From Acidobacteriota bacterium (GTDB lineage: Bacteria; Acidobacteriota; Terriglobia; Terriglobales; Acidobacteriaceae), in NCBI GenBank assembly GCA_021836865.1, contig JAKBHH010000009.1:1-60133 (forward strand): a stretch of 60,133 nt of DNA, given 5' to 3'. Each line of letters starts with the position of its first letter. The first letter of the stretch is position 1. Below, in pieces: positions 41,560-51,079 of the stretch. Below the pieces are notes generated by a model. That model saw nothing but the letters and a program-made list of their open reading frames with translations, was not told the DNA's origin and searched no databases. The translations under genes and the position numbers were made by a program.

Positions 41560-44427
41560 TCAGCCCTGAATATCGAACTGCTCAGGGTGTAGAGCCGGAT
41601 CGCTCTTGACCAGGATATTCTTGCCGACCAGTTCCTCGAATTCGGTGAGCCAGCGGGCGTTGTTGGATTTGAGCACTTTGACGGTTTCGGGATTCACGCG
41701 CAGCAGTACGTCGGCGCTCTCGAAGTGCTTCCGCATCTTGCGCAACTCGGTGTAAATCTCATTGCACACGGTGGCGGGGCTCTTGACCATGCCTGTGGCC
41801 TGGCAGGTGGGGCAGGGTACGCTCAGGGTGCGTTCCAGCGACTGCTTGACGCGTTTGCGGGTGATGGCGACTAGGCCGAAGTCATTGAATTGCAGGACTT
41901 TAGTTGGAGCGCGGTCATTCTTGAGCGCCTCTTCAAGAGCGGCCATCACTTTGAAGCGGTTCTTGCGCTCGTCCATGTCGATGAAGTCGATGATGATGAT
42001 GCCGCCAAGGTCGCGGAGGCGAATCTGGCGGACAATCTCCGGGATGGCATCGAGGTTGGTCTTGACGATGGTGTCTTCAAGGCGTGCGGTCTTGCCGACG
42101 TATTTGCCGGTGTTGATGTCGATGGCGACCAGGGCTTCAGTCTGGTTAATGACGATGGAGCCGCCGGACTTGAGCCAGACCTTGGAGCGCAGGGCCTTGG
42201 AGATTTCATCCTGGATGCCGAAGTGTTCGAAGAGTGGAACCTCTTTGGTGTAAAGCTTGACCCGGCGCACCAGCGTGGGCGAGAAGCGGTTGAGGAAGCG
42301 GACAATGCGCTCGTAATCTTCCTGCGAGTCGACCCAGATGGAGGAGAAGTTGGCGCTGACCTGGTCGCGGAGGATGCGCTCGATGAGCGACAGATCGTGA
42401 TAGATGAGCGCGGGGGACTTTGAGGACTCGGAGCGCTGCTTGATCTCGTTCCACAGGTGGATGAGGAAGCGGAGATCGGCGCGCAGCTCTTCTTCCGAGG
42501 CGCCCTCGGCGGCGGTGCGGACGATGAAGCCGCCCGAGGCCTCGCCGCGCTCGCTGACGAGAACCCTCTTCAGCCGCTGACGTTCTTCATCGGAGGCGAT
42601 TTTGCGGCTGACGCCGACGTGCGAGACCGTGGGCATGAAGACCAGGAAGCGGCCAGGCAGGGCGATATGCGAGGTGATCCGTGCGCCCTTCTTGGCGATG
42701 GGCTCCTTGGCAATTTGAACGAGAATCTCCTGGCCGGGCTTCAGCAGGTCAGAGATGATAGGCAGATTCGTTGTCTGTGCCGAGCGGCGCGAGGGGCCGC
42801 GGCGGTCGCCTGGTCGGGGTGGCGGTTGCCCTCGTCCACGGCGGCCACGGCCTCCGCGATCGCGGCGCTGCGGGGCTTGTCCTTCACCGGCGGGCTGGCC
42901 CTCGGCTGTGGCGGACTCTTCCTCGCCCTCTTCTCCTTCGGCCTCGAATGCTTCGTCTTCGTCGTCTTCCCCGTTTACGGAGTCGAAGTTCATCTGGATG
43001 CGGTGGTCGAGGTGAGCTTCCTGGAGCATCTCGCCGATCTCGCCGGAGCGAACTTGCGTCTGGAGTGTCTCCTCCTCGTACTCGTCGAGGTCGTGCTCGT
43101 CGGTCTTGTGGCGCGGGTGCTGCGCGACGTCGTACTCTGCTCCCTCGATGGTTTCCTCTTCCACCAGGCCGCTGCCGGGCGCGAATGCGGAGACGGATGC
43201 AACGGAGCTTACTGCCGGAGCGGTATCTTTGGCCTGCGGCTCATCCTTTTTCTTTTTGCCGCCGAGGCCGAAGAGGCGGAAGCCATTCGGCGGAAGCGGA
43301 TCGACATGATGGGAGGCAGAGGCATCGGGCTCGGCGCCGTCGTCCTCGGGCTCAGCCGATGCCTCGAGGCCGGAAGTCTCAAGCGGAGCGTCCGTGGTTT
43401 CCTCGGTCATTTCCTCTTCGACGAAGAATTGTCCGGCGGGCTGGCCTTGCGGTGCTTCCGCGGAAGGCTCGACGGGGGCCGAAGTCAGGTGGTGAGCCTC
43501 TGCCTCAGGTTGCACACCGGGAGCGTCGGCAAAGGTGCCTTGCGGTTCGCCATTCACCCGGTTTGCGGGCTCGATTGAGCGGCTGCGGTGGCGCGCGAGT
43601 GACTCACCGGGGAGCAGGCCGCTGCCGTCCCACGAGAGAGGACCCTCCATGAGTGTGGCGGGGCGATAGGTGGAGGCAGGACGCGCGGGAGGCTCGGGCT
43701 CCGCGGGCCTGGAGGTCTCTTCTGCCGGCGTGCCGCCGTATTTCGAGAGCGATTCGCCGGGCAGCACAAAGGGCGTAGGAGTGCGCTCGGCGCGCGGCGC
43801 GGCGGTGGCGTGGATTTCGTAGGTTTCGGCGGGCTCAGTCTCCCCTTCTTGCGCGTGCTGCGTCTCTTGGAGTTCGACTGTGCCTTTTGAGCCTTCGTCC
43901 TGGGGACCGGACGAGCCGCGGCCACCGCGGCGGCGTCGGCGACCACGCCAGCGGCGCGCGCCGTGCTCATCGACAGCGTCCGGCGCCGCCTCATTGAGGC
44001 CCGGCGTGGCTTGCTGCGGTTCCGTTGTTTCGGATTCGGTCTCTTCAGCTTCAGGGGCGGCTTCAGGAGCCGGACGTCGATCGCGGCGTTCGGAACGCTG
44101 GCGCTGGCCGCGCTCGCCAGCGGGGCGCACCTCGCGGGGAGGCTGGGTGCTGCCGGTCGAGGCCGCCTTTTCGAGCTCGTCGGTCTCTTCCTGGTCTTCC
44201 AGTTCGAGGAAGTCGGTTACATAGAGGAATGCGTCGCGCTCCAGGCCAATATCGACGAAAGCCGATTGCATGCCAGGCAGTACGCGCGTGACCCTGCCGT
44301 TGTATATGGAGCCTGCGAGCGTGTACTCGTTTTCGCGCTCGTAGTAGATTTCCGCGAGTTGATCGTCTTCAAGAATCGCGAGCCGCGTCTCATGCGGCGT
44401 AGAGGAGATACAGATTTCCTTTGCCAT
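41560..44427 (-). CDS. rng: Ribonuclease E/G with a large insertion in its S1 domain
   Basis: Endoribonuclease for mRNA decay and rRNA processing. With ATG 44427 (GGAAAGG site) the product has 955 residues; RNase G of E. coli has 489. The S1 domain begins normally (YNGRVTRVLPGMQSAFVDIG, 42-61) but is interrupted at about residue 76. It resumes near 560 with LLKPGQEILVQIAKEPIAKKG. The ~480-residue insertion is low-complexity (Glu, Pro, Arg, Gly), with two LPGESL motifs (222-227, 272-277). The catalytic Asp pair (D770 in AIDINTG, D814 in IIIDFIDM) and the zinc link CPTC (872-875) are intact. It follows rodA in the shape cluster, as rng follows mre genes in E. coli. Confidence 0.93.
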   Translation of the reverse strand: MAKEICISSTPHETRLAILEDDQLAEIYYERENEYTLAGSIYNGRVTRVLPGMQSAFVDIGLERDAFLYVTDFLELEDQEETDELEKAASTGSTQPPREVRPAGERGQRQRSERRDRRPAPEAAPEAEETESETTEPQQATPGLNEAAPDAVDEHGARRWRGRRRRRGGRGSSGPQDEGSKGTVELQETQHAQEGETEPAETYEIHATAAPRAERTPTPFVLPGESLSKYGGTPAEETSRPAEPEPPARPASTYRPATLMEGPLSWDGSGLLPGESLARHRSRSIEPANRVNGEPQGTFADAPGVQPEAEAHHLTSAPVEPSAEAPQGQPAGQFFVEEEMTEETTDAPLETSGLEASAEPEDDGAEPDASASHHVDPLPPNGFRLFGLGGKKKKDEPQAKDTAPAVSSVASVSAFAPGSGLVEEETIEGAEYDVAQHPRHKTDEHDLDEYEEETLQTQVRSGEIGEMLQEAHLDHRIQMNFDSVNGEDDEDEAFEAEGEEGEEESATAEGQPAGEGQAPQRRDRGGRGRRGRGQPPPRPGDRRGPSRRSAQTTNLPIISDLLKPGQEILVQIAKEPIAKKGARITSHIALPGRFLVFMPTVSHVGVSRKIASDEERQRLKRVLVSERGEASGGFIVRTAAEGASEEELRADLRFLIHLWNEIKQRSESSKSPALIYHDLSLIERILRDQVSANFSSIWVDSQEDYERIVRFLNRFSPTLVRRVKLYTKEVPLFEHFGIQDEISKALRSKVWLKSGGSIVINQTEALVAIDINTGKYVGKTARLEDTIVKTNLDAIPEIVRQIRLRDLGGIIIIDFIDMDERKNRFKVMAALEEALKNDRAPTKVLQFNDFGLVAITRKRVKQSLERTLSVPCPTCQATGMVKSPATVCNEIYTELRKMRKHFESADVLLRVNPETVKVLKSNNARWLTEFEELVGKNILVKSDPALHPEQFDIQG

Positions 44428-44952: not shown

Positions 44953-46065
44953 CTAGTTTACGAACCGGCGCATGCGCACGTTCATCGCGACACCCAGCGC
45001 CAGGAAGGTAAACAACACCGAAGATCCGCCGTAACTCATTAACGGTAATGGGATTCCGGTGACGGGCATAAACCCTATGACCATGCCTACATTGACCGCG
45101 ATCTGGAAGGTCAATACAGCCACGATTCCCATAATAAGGAGGGCCCCGGGCAGGTCGGCGGCTGTTTGAGCGTTTTGAATCAAACGCATCAATATGGAGA
45201 AGTATAACAGTAGGACCAGAATCGCGCCGACAAAGCCATGTTCCTCACTGAAGGCGGCGAAGATGAAGTCGGCGTGGGGGATGGGCAGAAAATCGCCCTG
45301 GGTCTGGGTGCCTTTTTCCGCGCCTTTGCCCCAGATGCCGCCGGAGCCGACGGCGATGAGGGACTGGCGAATCTGGTAGCCGCTGCCGCGCGGGTCGTTG
45401 TCGGGGTTAATGAAGCTGGTGAGACGGGCCTTCTGGTAGGGCTTGAGGACTTTGCCACTGGTCCATGCTCCGGCGATGAGGACCAGACCCGCGGTGAAAA
45501 GAATGATCGACTGGCGGATGCTGATGCCGCCGAGGAAGAGGCCTGCCATGAGAATGGGCGCGTAGGTGAGTGTGGTGCCGAGGTCGGGCTGCTTGAGGAC
45601 GAGCAGCATGGGGACGCCGACCAGGACGAAGGCCTTGAAGATGTCGCGCCCGGTGAGGGAACGGCCGCCCAGATTGGCGAAATAGCGAGCTACGGCGAGA
45701 ATGAGCACCAGCTTGACCCACTCGGACGGCTGGAAGAGGACCGGCCCGAGCTTGATCCAGCGGCGCGCGCCGAGGGCTTTGTGGCCGATGCCGGGGATCA
45801 AAACGATGCCGAGCAAGAAGAGAAAGACGCCATATATCCAGGGGGCGAAGTCGATGAGCTTGTGGTAGTCGATTTTGGCAAAGAGGAACATGCCGAAGAG
45901 ACCGCCGACGATCCAGAAGACCTGTTTGGTGTGAAAGCCGGTGTACCGGGTGTGCAGCGTGGCGGAGTAGATTTCAAAGATCGACAGGGCGCAGAGCACC
46001 AGCACCATTGCCAAAAGAGCCCAGTCGAAGTCGCGGAAGCTGAGGAAGCGGCGCGCCGGATTCAT
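44953..46065 (-). CDS. rodA: Peptidoglycan glycosyltransferase RodA
   Basis: SEDS-family membrane enzyme that polymerises glycan strands with PBP2 in the elongasome. The 370-residue product has about ten membrane helices. Family motifs include ARRWIKLGPVLFQPSEWVKL, LKQPDLGTTLTYAPI, the catalytic-loop region GDFLPIPHADFIFAAFSEEHGF, and the C-terminal TGIPLPLMSYGGSS. The start overlaps the mrdA stop (ATGA), so synthesis of the pair is coupled. AAGGA precedes the start. Confidence 0.96.
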   Translation of the reverse strand: MNPARRFLSFRDFDWALLAMVLVLCALSIFEIYSATLHTRYTGFHTKQVFWIVGGLFGMFLFAKIDYHKLIDFAPWIYGVFLFLLGIVLIPGIGHKALGARRWIKLGPVLFQPSEWVKLVLILAVARYFANLGGRSLTGRDIFKAFVLVGVPMLLVLKQPDLGTTLTYAPILMAGLFLGGISIRQSIILFTAGLVLIAGAWTSGKVLKPYQKARLTSFINPDNDPRGSGYQIRQSLIAVGSGGIWGKGAEKGTQTQGDFLPIPHADFIFAAFSEEHGFVGAILVLLLYFSILMRLIQNAQTAADLPGALLIMGIVAVLTFQIAVNVGMVIGFMPVTGIPLPLMSYGGSSVLFTFLALGVAMNVRMRRFVN

Positions 46066-48143
46066 GGAGTCCTTATCTGCCGTGGCGGCAGGGCGAGAGC
46101 GAGCCGCCCTGGCAGAGCGGAAGCCGTGCGCGGAGCATGTGCGGAGGCGGCTGTGGCGTGTACGCCGCCGGGCGCAGGCGGATTCACGAAGAAATGGCCG
46201 GCGCGAATGCGCGCAACCGGCTGACCGTTGCCGGTCTCCGGCTGCGACCAGATGGCGCCGACCTCGGCGGGTTTGGGAGGCGCAGCCGGCGCGGTGGCGG
46301 CCTTGACGGCGGGCAGATTATGGGCCAGGCGGCGCTGCTTTTCAACATATGCGGCGACAACCTGGGCGCCGATGCGGGCGGGGTAGTAGCTGAACTCGCC
46401 GTTCTGCCAGAGGACGGTGACGACCAGCTCGGGATTGCGGCGCGGGGTGACCCCGACGAACCAGACATTGGGATAGGTGATGCGGCCCTTGCTGGTGCGG
46501 TCCAGCGCTTCGTGGCTCATCACCTGGGCGGTGCCGGTTTTGCCCGCGAGGTCAATGCCTTCAAGATGCGCGGAGCCTGCGGTGTGGTAAAGGCCGGGCT
46601 GGGTAACCTCGGCCATGCCGTCGGTGATGGTCATCCAGGCATCGGGGTCGAGGGGGATATCGACCTTTCCGGAGCCGGGGTAGGTGTCGAGCAGCGCGTG
46701 GCGAAAGTCGGCGGGAAGCTGGTCAGGAAAAACGGTGTGAGGACGAACCAGGTGGCCGTCTGAGGCGATGCCGCCGATGATGCGGGCGAGCTGCAGGGGC
46801 GTGGCCTCGATGGCGCCCTGACCGATACCGACAGAGATGGTTTCGCCGGCGTACCACTTGCGGTGGTAGTTCTTCATCACCCACTGCGCGGAGGGCATAA
46901 GGCCAGCCTGTTCGCCGGGCAGGTCGATACCGGTCTTCTGGCCGTAGCCGAATTCCGTGGCATAGCGCGAGATGCGATCGATGCCAAGCTTGTCAGCGAG
47001 GGTGTAGTAGAAGGTATCGCACGACATGGGGATGGCGTTGTGGATGTCTACCAGGCCGTGCTTTTCATCGCAGTGGTAGTAATGGCCGTAGAAGTTGGCC
47101 CCGCCATTGCATTCGACGCGGAGGTTTTGCGCGATGCCCTCTTCAAGGCCGGCGACCGACATGAGGACCTTGAAGGTGGACCCTGGAGCGAGCTGCGCCT
47201 GGATGGCCTTGTTCAAGAGCGGGTGTTCGGGGTCGGTGATGAGTTTGTTCCAGGCGGTGCGGTCGATGCGAACAGCGAAGTCATTGGGATCAAAGCTTGG
47301 CCGGGAGACCATGGCGAGTATCTCGCCGTTGCGCGGGTCCATGGCGACGATGGCGCCCTGGCGGTCGCCGAGTGCGAGTTCGGCGGCGCGCTGCAGGTCG
47401 TTGTCGATGGTGAGGCGGAGGTCCTGGCCGGGGATGGCGTGCTGGGTGCGCAGGTAGCCGACCTCGCGGCCGCGGCTGTCGACGATGACGTCGCGGGAGC
47501 CGTCCTGGCCGCGGAGAAGCTGGTCGTAGCTTTCTTCGACGCCGGCTTTGCCGACGACGTCGCCGGGCTCATAGGCGGCATAGCGCGGGTCATTGAGCAT
47601 CTCTTCACTGACTTCGCCGACGTAGCCGATGAGGTGGGCAGCGTAGCCGTCGCGGGGATAGAGACGGCGTTCCTGGTCAATGGTTTCAAGCTCGGGCAGT
47701 TCGCTGGCATGGGCGGCGATAAAGGCCTGCTCGTCGGGCGTCACTTCCTGCTTGATGGGGATGGGCTGGTAGCCGGGCGCGCTGCGGTAGCGGCGCAGGG
47801 TAGCGCGCAACTGGTCGAGGTCGAGACCGAGGCCGCGGGCGATCAGGGGCAGGTCGGCGTCCACATTGTGGCCCTGTTCGCGGACGAGGAAGCAGGAGAC
47901 GGAGGGATAGTTGTCGACGATGAGGCGGTTTTCGCGGTCGAAGAGCTTGCCGCGGGGAGCGAGGATGGGGACTTTGCGAATGCGATTCTGCTCGGCGAGG
48001 ACGCGGAAGTTGTCTGCGCCCAGCACCTGGAGCCGCCACAGCCCCGCACCGAGCGCGAGCATCATCACGAGGATGCCGTATTGCACTACGGTCAGCTTGA
48101 GGCTGGAGAGCTTTTCGCCGCGTGTGAACCTGTCAAAAGCCAT
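46062..48143 (-). CDS. mrdA: Penicillin-binding protein 2 (transpeptidase)
   Basis: Class B PBP that cross-links peptidoglycan with RodA during elongation. The 693-residue product has a cytoplasmic start, one membrane helix (residues ~20-38), the PBP dimer/pedestal domain, and the transpeptidase domain with STFK (322-325, nucleophile S322), SCD (374-376) and KTG (535-537). About 60 C-terminal residues are Pro/Ala-rich and not part of the fold. Coupled to rodA by a 4-nt overlap; 95 nt after mreD. Confidence 0.96.
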   Translation of the reverse strand: MAFDRFTRGEKLSSLKLTVVQYGILVMMLALGAGLWRLQVLGADNFRVLAEQNRIRKVPILAPRGKLFDRENRLIVDNYPSVSCFLVREQGHNVDADLPLIARGLGLDLDQLRATLRRYRSAPGYQPIPIKQEVTPDEQAFIAAHASELPELETIDQERRLYPRDGYAAHLIGYVGEVSEEMLNDPRYAAYEPGDVVGKAGVEESYDQLLRGQDGSRDVIVDSRGREVGYLRTQHAIPGQDLRLTIDNDLQRAAELALGDRQGAIVAMDPRNGEILAMVSRPSFDPNDFAVRIDRTAWNKLITDPEHPLLNKAIQAQLAPGSTFKVLMSVAGLEEGIAQNLRVECNGGANFYGHYYHCDEKHGLVDIHNAIPMSCDTFYYTLADKLGIDRISRYATEFGYGQKTGIDLPGEQAGLMPSAQWVMKNYHRKWYAGETISVGIGQGAIEATPLQLARIIGGIASDGHLVRPHTVFPDQLPADFRHALLDTYPGSGKVDIPLDPDAWMTITDGMAEVTQPGLYHTAGSAHLEGIDLAGKTGTAQVMSHEALDRTSKGRITYPNVWFVGVTPRRNPELVVTVLWQNGEFSYYPARIGAQVVAAYVEKQRRLAHNLPAVKAATAPAAPPKPAEVGAIWSQPETGNGQPVARIRAGHFFVNPPAPGGVHATAASAHAPRTASALPGRLALALPPRQIRTP

Positions 48144-48238
48144 TTGCCTGCACTCTCAGGATACCGCGATACGGGTTGGGCATTCGATGCGCACCGCGGG
48201 GAAAAACAATCCGGTGAAAACCGGGAGCGCATCCGCGC

Positions 48239-48760
48239 TCAATCCCGGATACGGAAGCGGTCAAGCAGGGGAAAGAGCGCCAGCGCAAGGATGGAGTTTC
48301 CGGCGGCTTTGAGCAACTCGTCGAGCCAGTTCCAGTCCAGCGAGAGGCCCAGCAGGATGCGGTAGACAGAGACATAGAGTGTGCTGGAAAGCAGGGAGAA
48401 GAACAGCACCAGCAGGACCCGGATGGTGTGGTTCTCCACGTCAATGCGCACGCCGAAGGAGGATGCGAGAAAGCCAACCAGGGTTTTGGCGATGCCGTTG
48501 ATGCCGATGGCGTGCTGCGTGAGCGCATCCTGAAAGATGCCGAGGACAAAGCCCATCACCGTTCCCTGAATGGGGCTGGGTCTGCCGAGCGCGAAGTAGA
48601 CGATGATGAGCAGAGGCAGATCGAACCAGGCGAAGCGGCCGAGCACGCGGGGCAGCCAGGCTTGCAGGACCACCGCCGTGAGCGGTACAAGCGCATAGAC
48701 GAGAACTGGGAAGCGGTGAATATCGAGTTCGCGGCGCGAATTGGCGGAGAGGACGGGCAT
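48239..48760 (-). CDS. mreD: Rod shape-determining protein MreD
   Basis: Inner-membrane elongasome component. The 173-residue product has 5-6 hydrophobic segments and the weakly conserved MreD pattern WFDLPLLIIVYFALGRPSPIQGTVMGFVLGIFQDAL. It starts 2 nt after the mreC stop. Identification rests on this motif and on its place between mreC and mrdA. Confidence 0.9.
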   Translation of the reverse strand: MPVLSANSRRELDIHRFPVLVYALVPLTAVVLQAWLPRVLGRFAWFDLPLLIIVYFALGRPSPIQGTVMGFVLGIFQDALTQHAIGINGIAKTLVGFLASSFGVRIDVENHTIRVLLVLFFSLLSSTLYVSVYRILLGLSLDWNWLDELLKAAGNSILALALFPLLDRFRIRD

Positions 48761-48762
48761 GG

Positions 48763-49926
48763 TTATGGATTCCTCTGCGGCGTCTGTGTAGACTGCGCGG
48801 GCGCGCCGGGCTGGCTGTTTTGCAGGTCGGGCGCGGTGCCCGGCGTGAAGCGGTCCGGGCGCAGGGGCTGCGGGGGGTGGGCCACGGGTACGGGCGGGGT
48901 GCTGTCATGGAGCGGTTGCTGGTCCGGGGGCAGGTTGGGGTCGATGAGGCCGGGCAACCGCTCGGCCATGATCGCGGAAGCTTTTTTCTGGGCCTCCTCC
49001 TGCTGGACCTCTGCGCCTTTGAGAGCCTGGCTCACGGCCATGTCCTGCTGCTGGTCGGGCGAGAAGCGCGGTTGGGTGGAGGTGATCACGAGCACTTCGT
49101 CGAGGCGGTCGAGCTTGGCATAGGGTTTGACGATGACGTTGATGAAGCCGTCGCGTTGAGGGTCGCGTACCACCTTGTCGACGACGCCGACGGGCAGGCC
49201 GCGGGGAAATATCTGGTCGCCGCCGGCGGTGAGGACGCGCTCGCCGGGCTGGATGCGGTTGTCGGCGATAATGCCGACGATCTGCGGCTGGCCCTGAGCG
49301 TTGCCGCGCAGGATGCCGCGAATGCGCGTGGTTTCAAGGATGACCCCTGCGCCGCTGGTCTGGTCGTTGATGACGAGGATCTGGGATGCGTGGGAAAAGG
49401 CGTCGCGCACCTTGCCGACGATGCCGTCCGGGGTGATGACGGCCATGTCGTGCTGGAGGCCGTCGACTGTGCCCTTGTCGATGTAGAGGACGCGGGACTG
49501 GGTGGTGCCGCTGGAGCCGATGACCTGTGCGGGGAGCGTTTTGTAGAGGTACGTTTCCTGGAAGTGCAGGAGTGCCTGCAGGCGCTGGCCCTGGCGTGCG
49601 TCTTCAAGCAACGCGGCTTGTTCAAGGCGGAGGCGGTCGACGGTTTTCTGCAGGTCCTGGTTCTGCTGACGGACATGACGCAGGTCAATATAGTTCTGCC
49701 AGAGATCGAGCAGGTCGAGTCCTGAGGAATGAATGAGCCGCTCGGGGGGCGATACGAATGCACTAGCCCAGAGGCGGATGAGGCGCACTCCGCCGGAGTC
49801 GCGTGGATCAAGGCTCATGCGTCCGGAATCGGCACGGTGCACCTGCACGGCGAGGCCGACGACCTGTACCGCCAGCAGGGCCAGAAGCACCAGAAGATTC
49901 CGATAACGGACGAAGAACGGTTCCAT
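48763..49926 (-). CDS. mreC: Rod shape-determining protein MreC
   Basis: Periplasmic scaffold that activates PBP2/RodA. The 387-residue product has a membrane helix near residues 10-28. A coiled coil follows (~75-110, RHVRQQNQDLQKTVDRLRLEQAALLED), then the double beta-barrel domain (YIDKGTVDGLQHDMAVITPDGIVGKV, LTAGGDQIFPRGLPVGVVDKVVRD). A ~90-residue Pro/Gln-rich tail rarely seen in E. coli-type MreC completes it. It follows mreB after 70 nt. Confidence 0.94.
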   Translation of the reverse strand: MEPFFVRYRNLLVLLALLAVQVVGLAVQVHRADSGRMSLDPRDSGGVRLIRLWASAFVSPPERLIHSSGLDLLDLWQNYIDLRHVRQQNQDLQKTVDRLRLEQAALLEDARQGQRLQALLHFQETYLYKTLPAQVIGSSGTTQSRVLYIDKGTVDGLQHDMAVITPDGIVGKVRDAFSHASQILVINDQTSGAGVILETTRIRGILRGNAQGQPQIVGIIADNRIQPGERVLTAGGDQIFPRGLPVGVVDKVVRDPQRDGFINVIVKPYAKLDRLDEVLVITSTQPRFSPDQQQDMAVSQALKGAEVQQEEAQKKASAIMAERLPGLIDPNLPPDQQPLHDSTPPVPVAHPPQPLRPDRFTPGTAPDLQNSQPGAPAQSTQTPQRNP

Positions 49927-49996
49927 GGCAAAGCTCAGGGCCCAAGCCCGGGCGCGCGGGGAAAGATTTGTTTACCGGCCCCGTCAATCCCGCCGC

Positions 49997-51079
<1,083 letters not shown>

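Follow-up and report, generated by a model that had tools for sequence, protein, structure and literature searches.

The window, a stretch of 60,133 nucleotides from an Acidobacteriota bacterium, contains an RNase E/G gene on the minus strand whose translation (41560-44427) gives 955 aa plus a stop, at the coordinates and on the strand assigned by the first-pass annotation. Profile searches place the catalytic region PF10150 at residues 590-860 (345.5 bits, cut-off 25.5), which establishes RNase E/G family membership, and TIGR00757 is likewise exceeded (484 bits, cut-off 325.95); PF20833, at the C-terminus, lies just below its threshold (26.2 vs 26.8). No second RNase E/G match was found in the source genome, which is 96% complete. 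The gene and its features are as follows.

41560..44427, minus strand: RNase E/G gene, RNase G-type; 955 codons, PF10150 and TIGR00757 over cut-off
44215..44427, minus strand: N-terminal part and first S1 half, residues 1-71; aligned to E. coli up to 71, pLDDT 84-97 (1-70)
42769..44214, minus strand: S1 insert, residues 72-553; without E. coli counterpart, mostly pLDDT <50, mostly predicted disordered
44158..44217, minus strand: acidic entry helix, residues 71-90; second AlphaFold model, block pLDDT 68
43915..43959, minus strand: Arg-rich block 1, residues 157-171, with WRGRRRRRGGRG at 160-171; by position, conserved island
43738..43764, minus strand: LPGESLSKY, first motif copy, residues 222-230; class-wide broad motif by pattern counts
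43588..43632, minus strand: WDGSGLLPGESLARH, second motif copy, residues 266-280; island scoring 0.98 in close relatives
43246..43281, minus strand: FRLFGLGGKKKK, near-relative motif, residues 383-394; loose form in 17/133
42985..43059, minus strand: predicted helix in the insert, residues 457-481; block pLDDT ~70 (461-480), kept in close relatives
42793..42867, minus strand: Arg/Gly-rich block 2, residues 521-545; by position, conserved island
42670..42768, minus strand: second S1 half, residues 554-586; aligned to E. coli from 86, pLDDT 92-95 (561-590)
41848..42660, minus strand: catalytic RNase_E_G region (PF10150), residues 590-860; profile match
44953..51061, minus strand: RodA, PBP2, MreD, MreC and MreB reading frames, upstream; open reading frames

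The upstream reading frames are presumably RodA, PBP2, MreD, MreC and MreB, names given by similarity to known proteins. Where the upstream DNA reaches 1500 bases or more, as it does at 71 named loci (from the best 80 of 579 relatives), a RodA frame is present in 69. The adjacency to elongasome genes had been offered as meaningful, but it is an ordinary placement: E. coli rng likewise sits after mre genes, at mreBCD-yhdE-rng, so the arrangement is ancestral and gives no functional hint.

Alignment with phmmer to E. coli RNase E (2bx2, numbered after subtraction of a 7-residue tag offset) covers residues 4-71 and 554-888. On the E. coli side the two stretches end at 71 and restart at 86, leaving 14 residues there vs 482 in the window protein, and the S1 domain is indeed split by ~480 residues (72-553), as first described. 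The same alignment pairs residues of the window protein with those that in E. coli bind the metal, form the 5'-sensor and make the Zn-link; all eight, K580, R637, T638, D770, N772, D814, C872 and C875, are invariant in 130 aligned rows.

Structure prediction of the reassembled S1 domain, proposed earlier as a check, agrees with this layout. The AlphaFold model built from 130 aligned relatives closes S1 across the break (strands 41-50, 55-59, 66-69, 567-574 and 583-585) around a low-confidence insert, with block pLDDT of 84-97 for residues 31-70, 92-95 for 561-590 and <50 for most of 92-535. Two insert helices reach intermediate confidence, 71-90 (68) and 457-481 (~70). Blocks holding the two motif copies average 46 and 43, and the model gives the copies no placement. 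A first model, built from 73 rows, gave low confidence for the S1 halves and did not close the domain. Foldseek returned E. coli RNase E chains as top matches with rmsd values of 15-18.6 over 276-406 columns (ranks 1-19), so the domain arrangement of the model is unreliable; a match to the S1/5'-sensor part of Caulobacter 4oxp gives an rmsd of 3.0 over 135 columns.

Disorder-promoting residues make up 70% of the insert (taken as 74-564) vs 49% of the core, and acidic and Arg-rich charge blocks alternate along it. The elements originally reported are where they were said to be: LPGESL at 222-227 and 272-277, FRLFGLGGKKKK at 383-394, and two Arg-rich stretches, 160-171 and 524-533. The WRGRRRRRGGRG block is a conserved island in each of the five groups examined by sliding comparison. 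The protein carries a mostly predicted disordered insert in its S1 domain, as S1-insert RNase E does, and lacks the disordered C-terminal tail of scaffold-type RNase E. Its short C-terminus, already remarked upon, is general: the tail is <60 aa in 74/74 proteins (the window protein and named loci with both S1 halves, drawn from the best 80 of 579 relatives).

In a maximum-likelihood tree built quickly from 59 insert-free cores, 11 C-tailed proteins join E. coli RNase E, and all others, every insert row among them, join E. coli RNase G (SH-aLRT 100); the E. coli rows drew a long-branch warning from the program. The 31 insert rows form one clade (97), within which the window's class is nested (100), giving one change of state. 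L126, with 99 aa between the anchors flanking the break, was scored as short; scoring it as an insert gives two changes, and adding L130 (63 aa) returns the count to one. The window protein is better read as RNase G-type than as RNase E: the RNase E/G assignment of the first-pass annotation stands through PF10150 and TIGR00757, and its RNase E label gives way to the grouping with RNase G. Because the RNase G equivalog NF008689 is not reached (503.5 bits vs a cut-off of 594), the term RNase G-type is used here rather than RNase G.

Tails and inserts were scored in 60 genomes picked from 255 with a match, each family being represented by one or a few among the matches listed; L168, whose left half is missing, was dropped to give 59 proteins, and several tail lengths are lower bounds, the available stretch having run out. 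In this set, a tail is absent from all 36 proteins whose anchors lie at least 99 aa apart, each being the single RNase E/G of its genome, and all 12 tailed proteins combine a short S1 loop with a further RNase E/G copy in the genome. The anchors lie 20-51 aa apart in most short, insert-less forms. Since the insert rows are one clade in the tree, the absence of tails counts as about one event, not 36. In the phylum sample of 297 genomes, 42 lack any RNase E/G match, and some of the others encode both a C-tailed RNase E and a short RNase G.

Conservation of LPGESL, a hexamer chosen by the earlier sequence reading before testing, was followed in named relatives, the best 80 of 579. These were found by peptide patterns partly drawn from the insert, so the set is biased to insert-bearing matches; the genome samples (297 of the phylum, 81 of the class) are free of that bias. 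Four of the 80 (L078-L081) do not belong to the motif-bearing group; among the remaining 76, the left S1 half is missing in 7, leaving 69 class relatives with both halves. In this selection from the best 80 of 579, an insert is present in 69/69 (343-875 aa, median 531), every one of these inserts contains [LIVM]PGE[ST][LIM]x[KR][YHF], and 49/69 carry exact LPGESL, around which the motif reads LPGE[ST][LI]xKY. After 500 composition-preserving shuffles exact LPGESL occurs in a mean of 0.006 sequences (maximum 1), a control that ignores shared descent. Two or more copies occur in 45/70 sequences (window included; best 80 of 579) at a median spacing of 51, the middle half being 49-52. In the 7 partial loci, three copies are seen in L028 and none in the other 6, whose open frames lack the N-terminal half. 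Across classes, 76 of 110 inserts of at least 90 aa contain the motif, in 110 copies (shuffles expect 0.0); the 34 motif-less inserts comprise one class member with LPGEFIAKY (L120) and 33 from outside the motif-bearing class.

The motif is held within an insert that drifts. Over 12 relatives, insert identity, calculated on the length of the longer insert, drops from 66% to 21-30% in the far ones, with the core at 65-79%. By sliding comparison the score of the motif in close relatives is 0.95, third behind two other islands, and the motif is the top island in the three more distant class groups (0.99, 0.94 and 0.89); it is not among the conserved islands of other classes. At its nine positions the 76 sequences use between 2 and 10 different codons, which places the constraint on the protein. 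Selection is argued from this codon diversity and from the drift of the surrounding insert, since the shuffles take no account of common ancestry. The proposal that LPGESL persists in otherwise variable insertions is upheld.

Genome-wide counts gave the same distribution. The DNA pattern for LPGExLxKY occurs in 64 of 81 genomes of a second sample from the class, the reversed control in 0/81, and 29 of 30 fetched class loci with the pattern are the RNase gene (exception, L189). The 17 class genomes without the pattern comprise 3 without an RNase E/G match, 2 with loci cut near the insert, 10 with LPGESL and a changed end lacking KY, 1 with a degenerate PGESLA and 1 with none in the fetched part. 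In the phylum sample the pattern is present in 32 of 33 class genomes and in 1 of 264 others (reversed control, 2/297); the sole class miss, G171, has LPGESLSRY. A search for the motif in a second protein of the source genome was negative: a shorter pattern gave 8 matches (6 reversed), 2 of them in the RNase gene and the remaining 6 without the KY end. One of the source-genome loci, L088 on contig C152, is a 379-aa open frame whose start resembles a signal sequence; it carries LLPGESLAIARF, without the KY end. One family member holds two RNase E/G genes with a pattern match near each (G273:C26 and G273:C71). L250, with a degenerate LPGESL, and L249, with none in the fetched part, are long enzymes of one family (G310 and G317, respectively); they are natural motif losses, useful as controls.

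FRLFGLGGKKKK, whose conservation was to be checked alongside that of LPGESL, is limited to near relatives: its loose form occurs in 17 of 133 sequences and its exact form in 7/133, and each of these belongs either to the window protein or to one of its near relatives. As a class-wide motif it is ruled out.

The sister class (the class of G025) has a different motif in the same place. LPGExLxKY is found in 0/78 of its genomes (reversed control, 1/78), and in the sliding comparison its S1 inserts carry FER[VI]xD[DE][DE] (L125, L129, L134, L135, L157, L158, L162, L170, L171 and L172). The corresponding DNA pattern occurs in 55 of 78 sister-class genomes, often with two copies ~50-57 codons apart, and 26 of 30 fetched loci are the RNase gene. 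In the window's class the pattern occurs in 10 of 81 genomes and never at the RNase gene: 9 occurrences are on other contigs and 1 is on the same contig >300 kb away. A 349-aa non-RNase open frame (L236, genome G406) contains FERIVDDE, possibly as a second motif protein and possibly by chance. The presence of another motif in the same insert suggests that putative docking sites were replaced or gained separately.

Our preferred reading, which we hold to be probable, is that the disordered S1 insert lets this RNase G-type endoribonuclease serve as a scaffold, with the motif docking a candidate partner. Both S1 halves and the catalytic residues are preserved around the insert, leaving the nuclease intact, and a scaffold inside S1 would replace the C-terminal tail used by RNase E. 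LPGE[ST][LI]xKY would dock a putative partner protein, with a DEAD-box helicase, PNPase or RNase J as candidates, and the Arg-rich blocks on both sides of the motif may hold RNA in the manner of those of Pseudomonas RNase E (PMC11964227). Among 21 genomes (the source and relatives), RNase J, for which we take TIGR00649 to be the model, exceeds its cut-off in 20 and PNPase in 19; RNase Y exceeds its cut-off in 0/21, with weak matches in 10. The PNPase match of the source genome is split over two contigs (G000:C86 and G000:C39). As the insert leaves S1 near the RNA channel, docking may be coupled to substrate access. Such coupling is plausible because, according to the accessible part of PMC4245959, RhlB is bound by a Caulobacter RNase E fragment (1-274) that includes the S1 insert, a helix of which protrudes into the predicted RNA site.

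Conservation within a drifting insert makes LPGESL look like a docking motif. Against docking, the motif could act within the protein itself; the absence of tails in insert-bearing proteins is, on the tree, one evolutionary event; and a few class members have a degenerate motif (L250) or none found (L249), with 10 others lacking the KY end. On a rival reading the insert is mainly a gate, in which the acidic entry helix or the motif folds onto the S1/5'-sensor cleft and competes with RNA. The Caulobacter helix just described is a precedent, and the predicted helix 71-90 directly follows the first S1 half; the motif copies, however, are unplaced by AlphaFold and lie far in sequence from the S1 halves, at a varying distance, and we regard a mainly gating insert as unlikely, if the strongest of the competing readings.

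More doubtful still is a reading in which the Arg-rich and acidic blocks, by driving condensates or binding RNA, account for most of what the insert does, with the motif secondary. The alternating charge blocks, the Arg-rich islands also found in other classes and, in the accessible part of PMC11964227, the Arg-rich motifs of Pseudomonas RNase E that mediate RNA binding and foci all speak for such a role, but charge blocks alone leave an exact nine-residue motif with one basic residue unexplained. FRLFGLGGKKKK places hydrophobic residues before a Lys run in an otherwise Lys-poor insert and, we assume, resembles the E. coli membrane motif; its confinement to near relatives nevertheless makes a membrane anchor tethering the enzyme, as the RNase E membrane motif does, very improbable. 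Least credible is an assembly error, or a biased composition with accidental motifs. The insert is of low complexity and variable in length, yet its presence in 69/69 class relatives from many assemblies (best 80 of 579), the shuffle mean and the absence of the reversed pattern from the class genomes contradict both readings, the first of which had been named as a ground for refutation.

If the scaffold reading is extended to the phylum, Acidobacteriota may have a degradosome built on RNase G through an S1 scaffold, with class-specific motifs (LPGE[ST][LI]xKY; FER[VI]xD[DE][DE]) acquired there afterwards, whose docking, as the scaffold departs from the RNA channel, would directly control substrate access, a proposal we make tentatively and give somewhat less than an even chance. 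A 2011 review lists a Fibrobacteres/Acidobacteria enzyme of 511 aa, whose size is the reason given in its accessible part for denying degradosome potential (PMC3071783); many of the enzymes sampled here far exceed 511 aa, and the extra mass is internal. The nine-residue class-wide motif is a ready bait, for which the natural losses and the sister class already supply controls. Binding of a partner would mean that scaffolds for RNA decay arose in another paralogue and another place, beside the RNA channel.

Smaller S1 inserts and motif-bearing C-terminal tails are already known; in the open-access literature we found nothing on LPGESL, nor on S1-inserted or disordered RNase E/G of Acidobacteria/Acidobacteriota. 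Like alpha-proteobacterial and plant RNase E as presented in the accessible part of PMC4245959, the window protein has S1 interrupted by a charged, predicted disordered, species-variable insert. Those inserts span ~50-150 aa, in contrast to 343-875 aa in the 69 class relatives (best 80 of 579); the Caulobacter enzyme bears, in addition, a scaffold tail at its C-terminus, which the window protein lacks, and the same part of that paper does not mention the class-wide motif. The window protein shares with E. coli RNase G (rng/cafA) its side of the tree, its place after mre genes and the lack of a tail; E. coli RNase G has 489 aa and an uninterrupted S1, whereas S1 is interrupted here. The C-terminal scaffolds of E. 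coli and Pseudomonas RNase E, in the accessible parts of PMC4435900 and PMC11964227, are disordered and carry short conserved motifs, some of them duplicated, together with Arg-rich blocks that bind RNA. The insert resembles them in its disorder, its short conserved motifs, some duplicated, and its Arg-rich blocks, and by analogy we infer that it works like such a scaffold; it differs from them in lying inside S1 and in the RNase G lineage.
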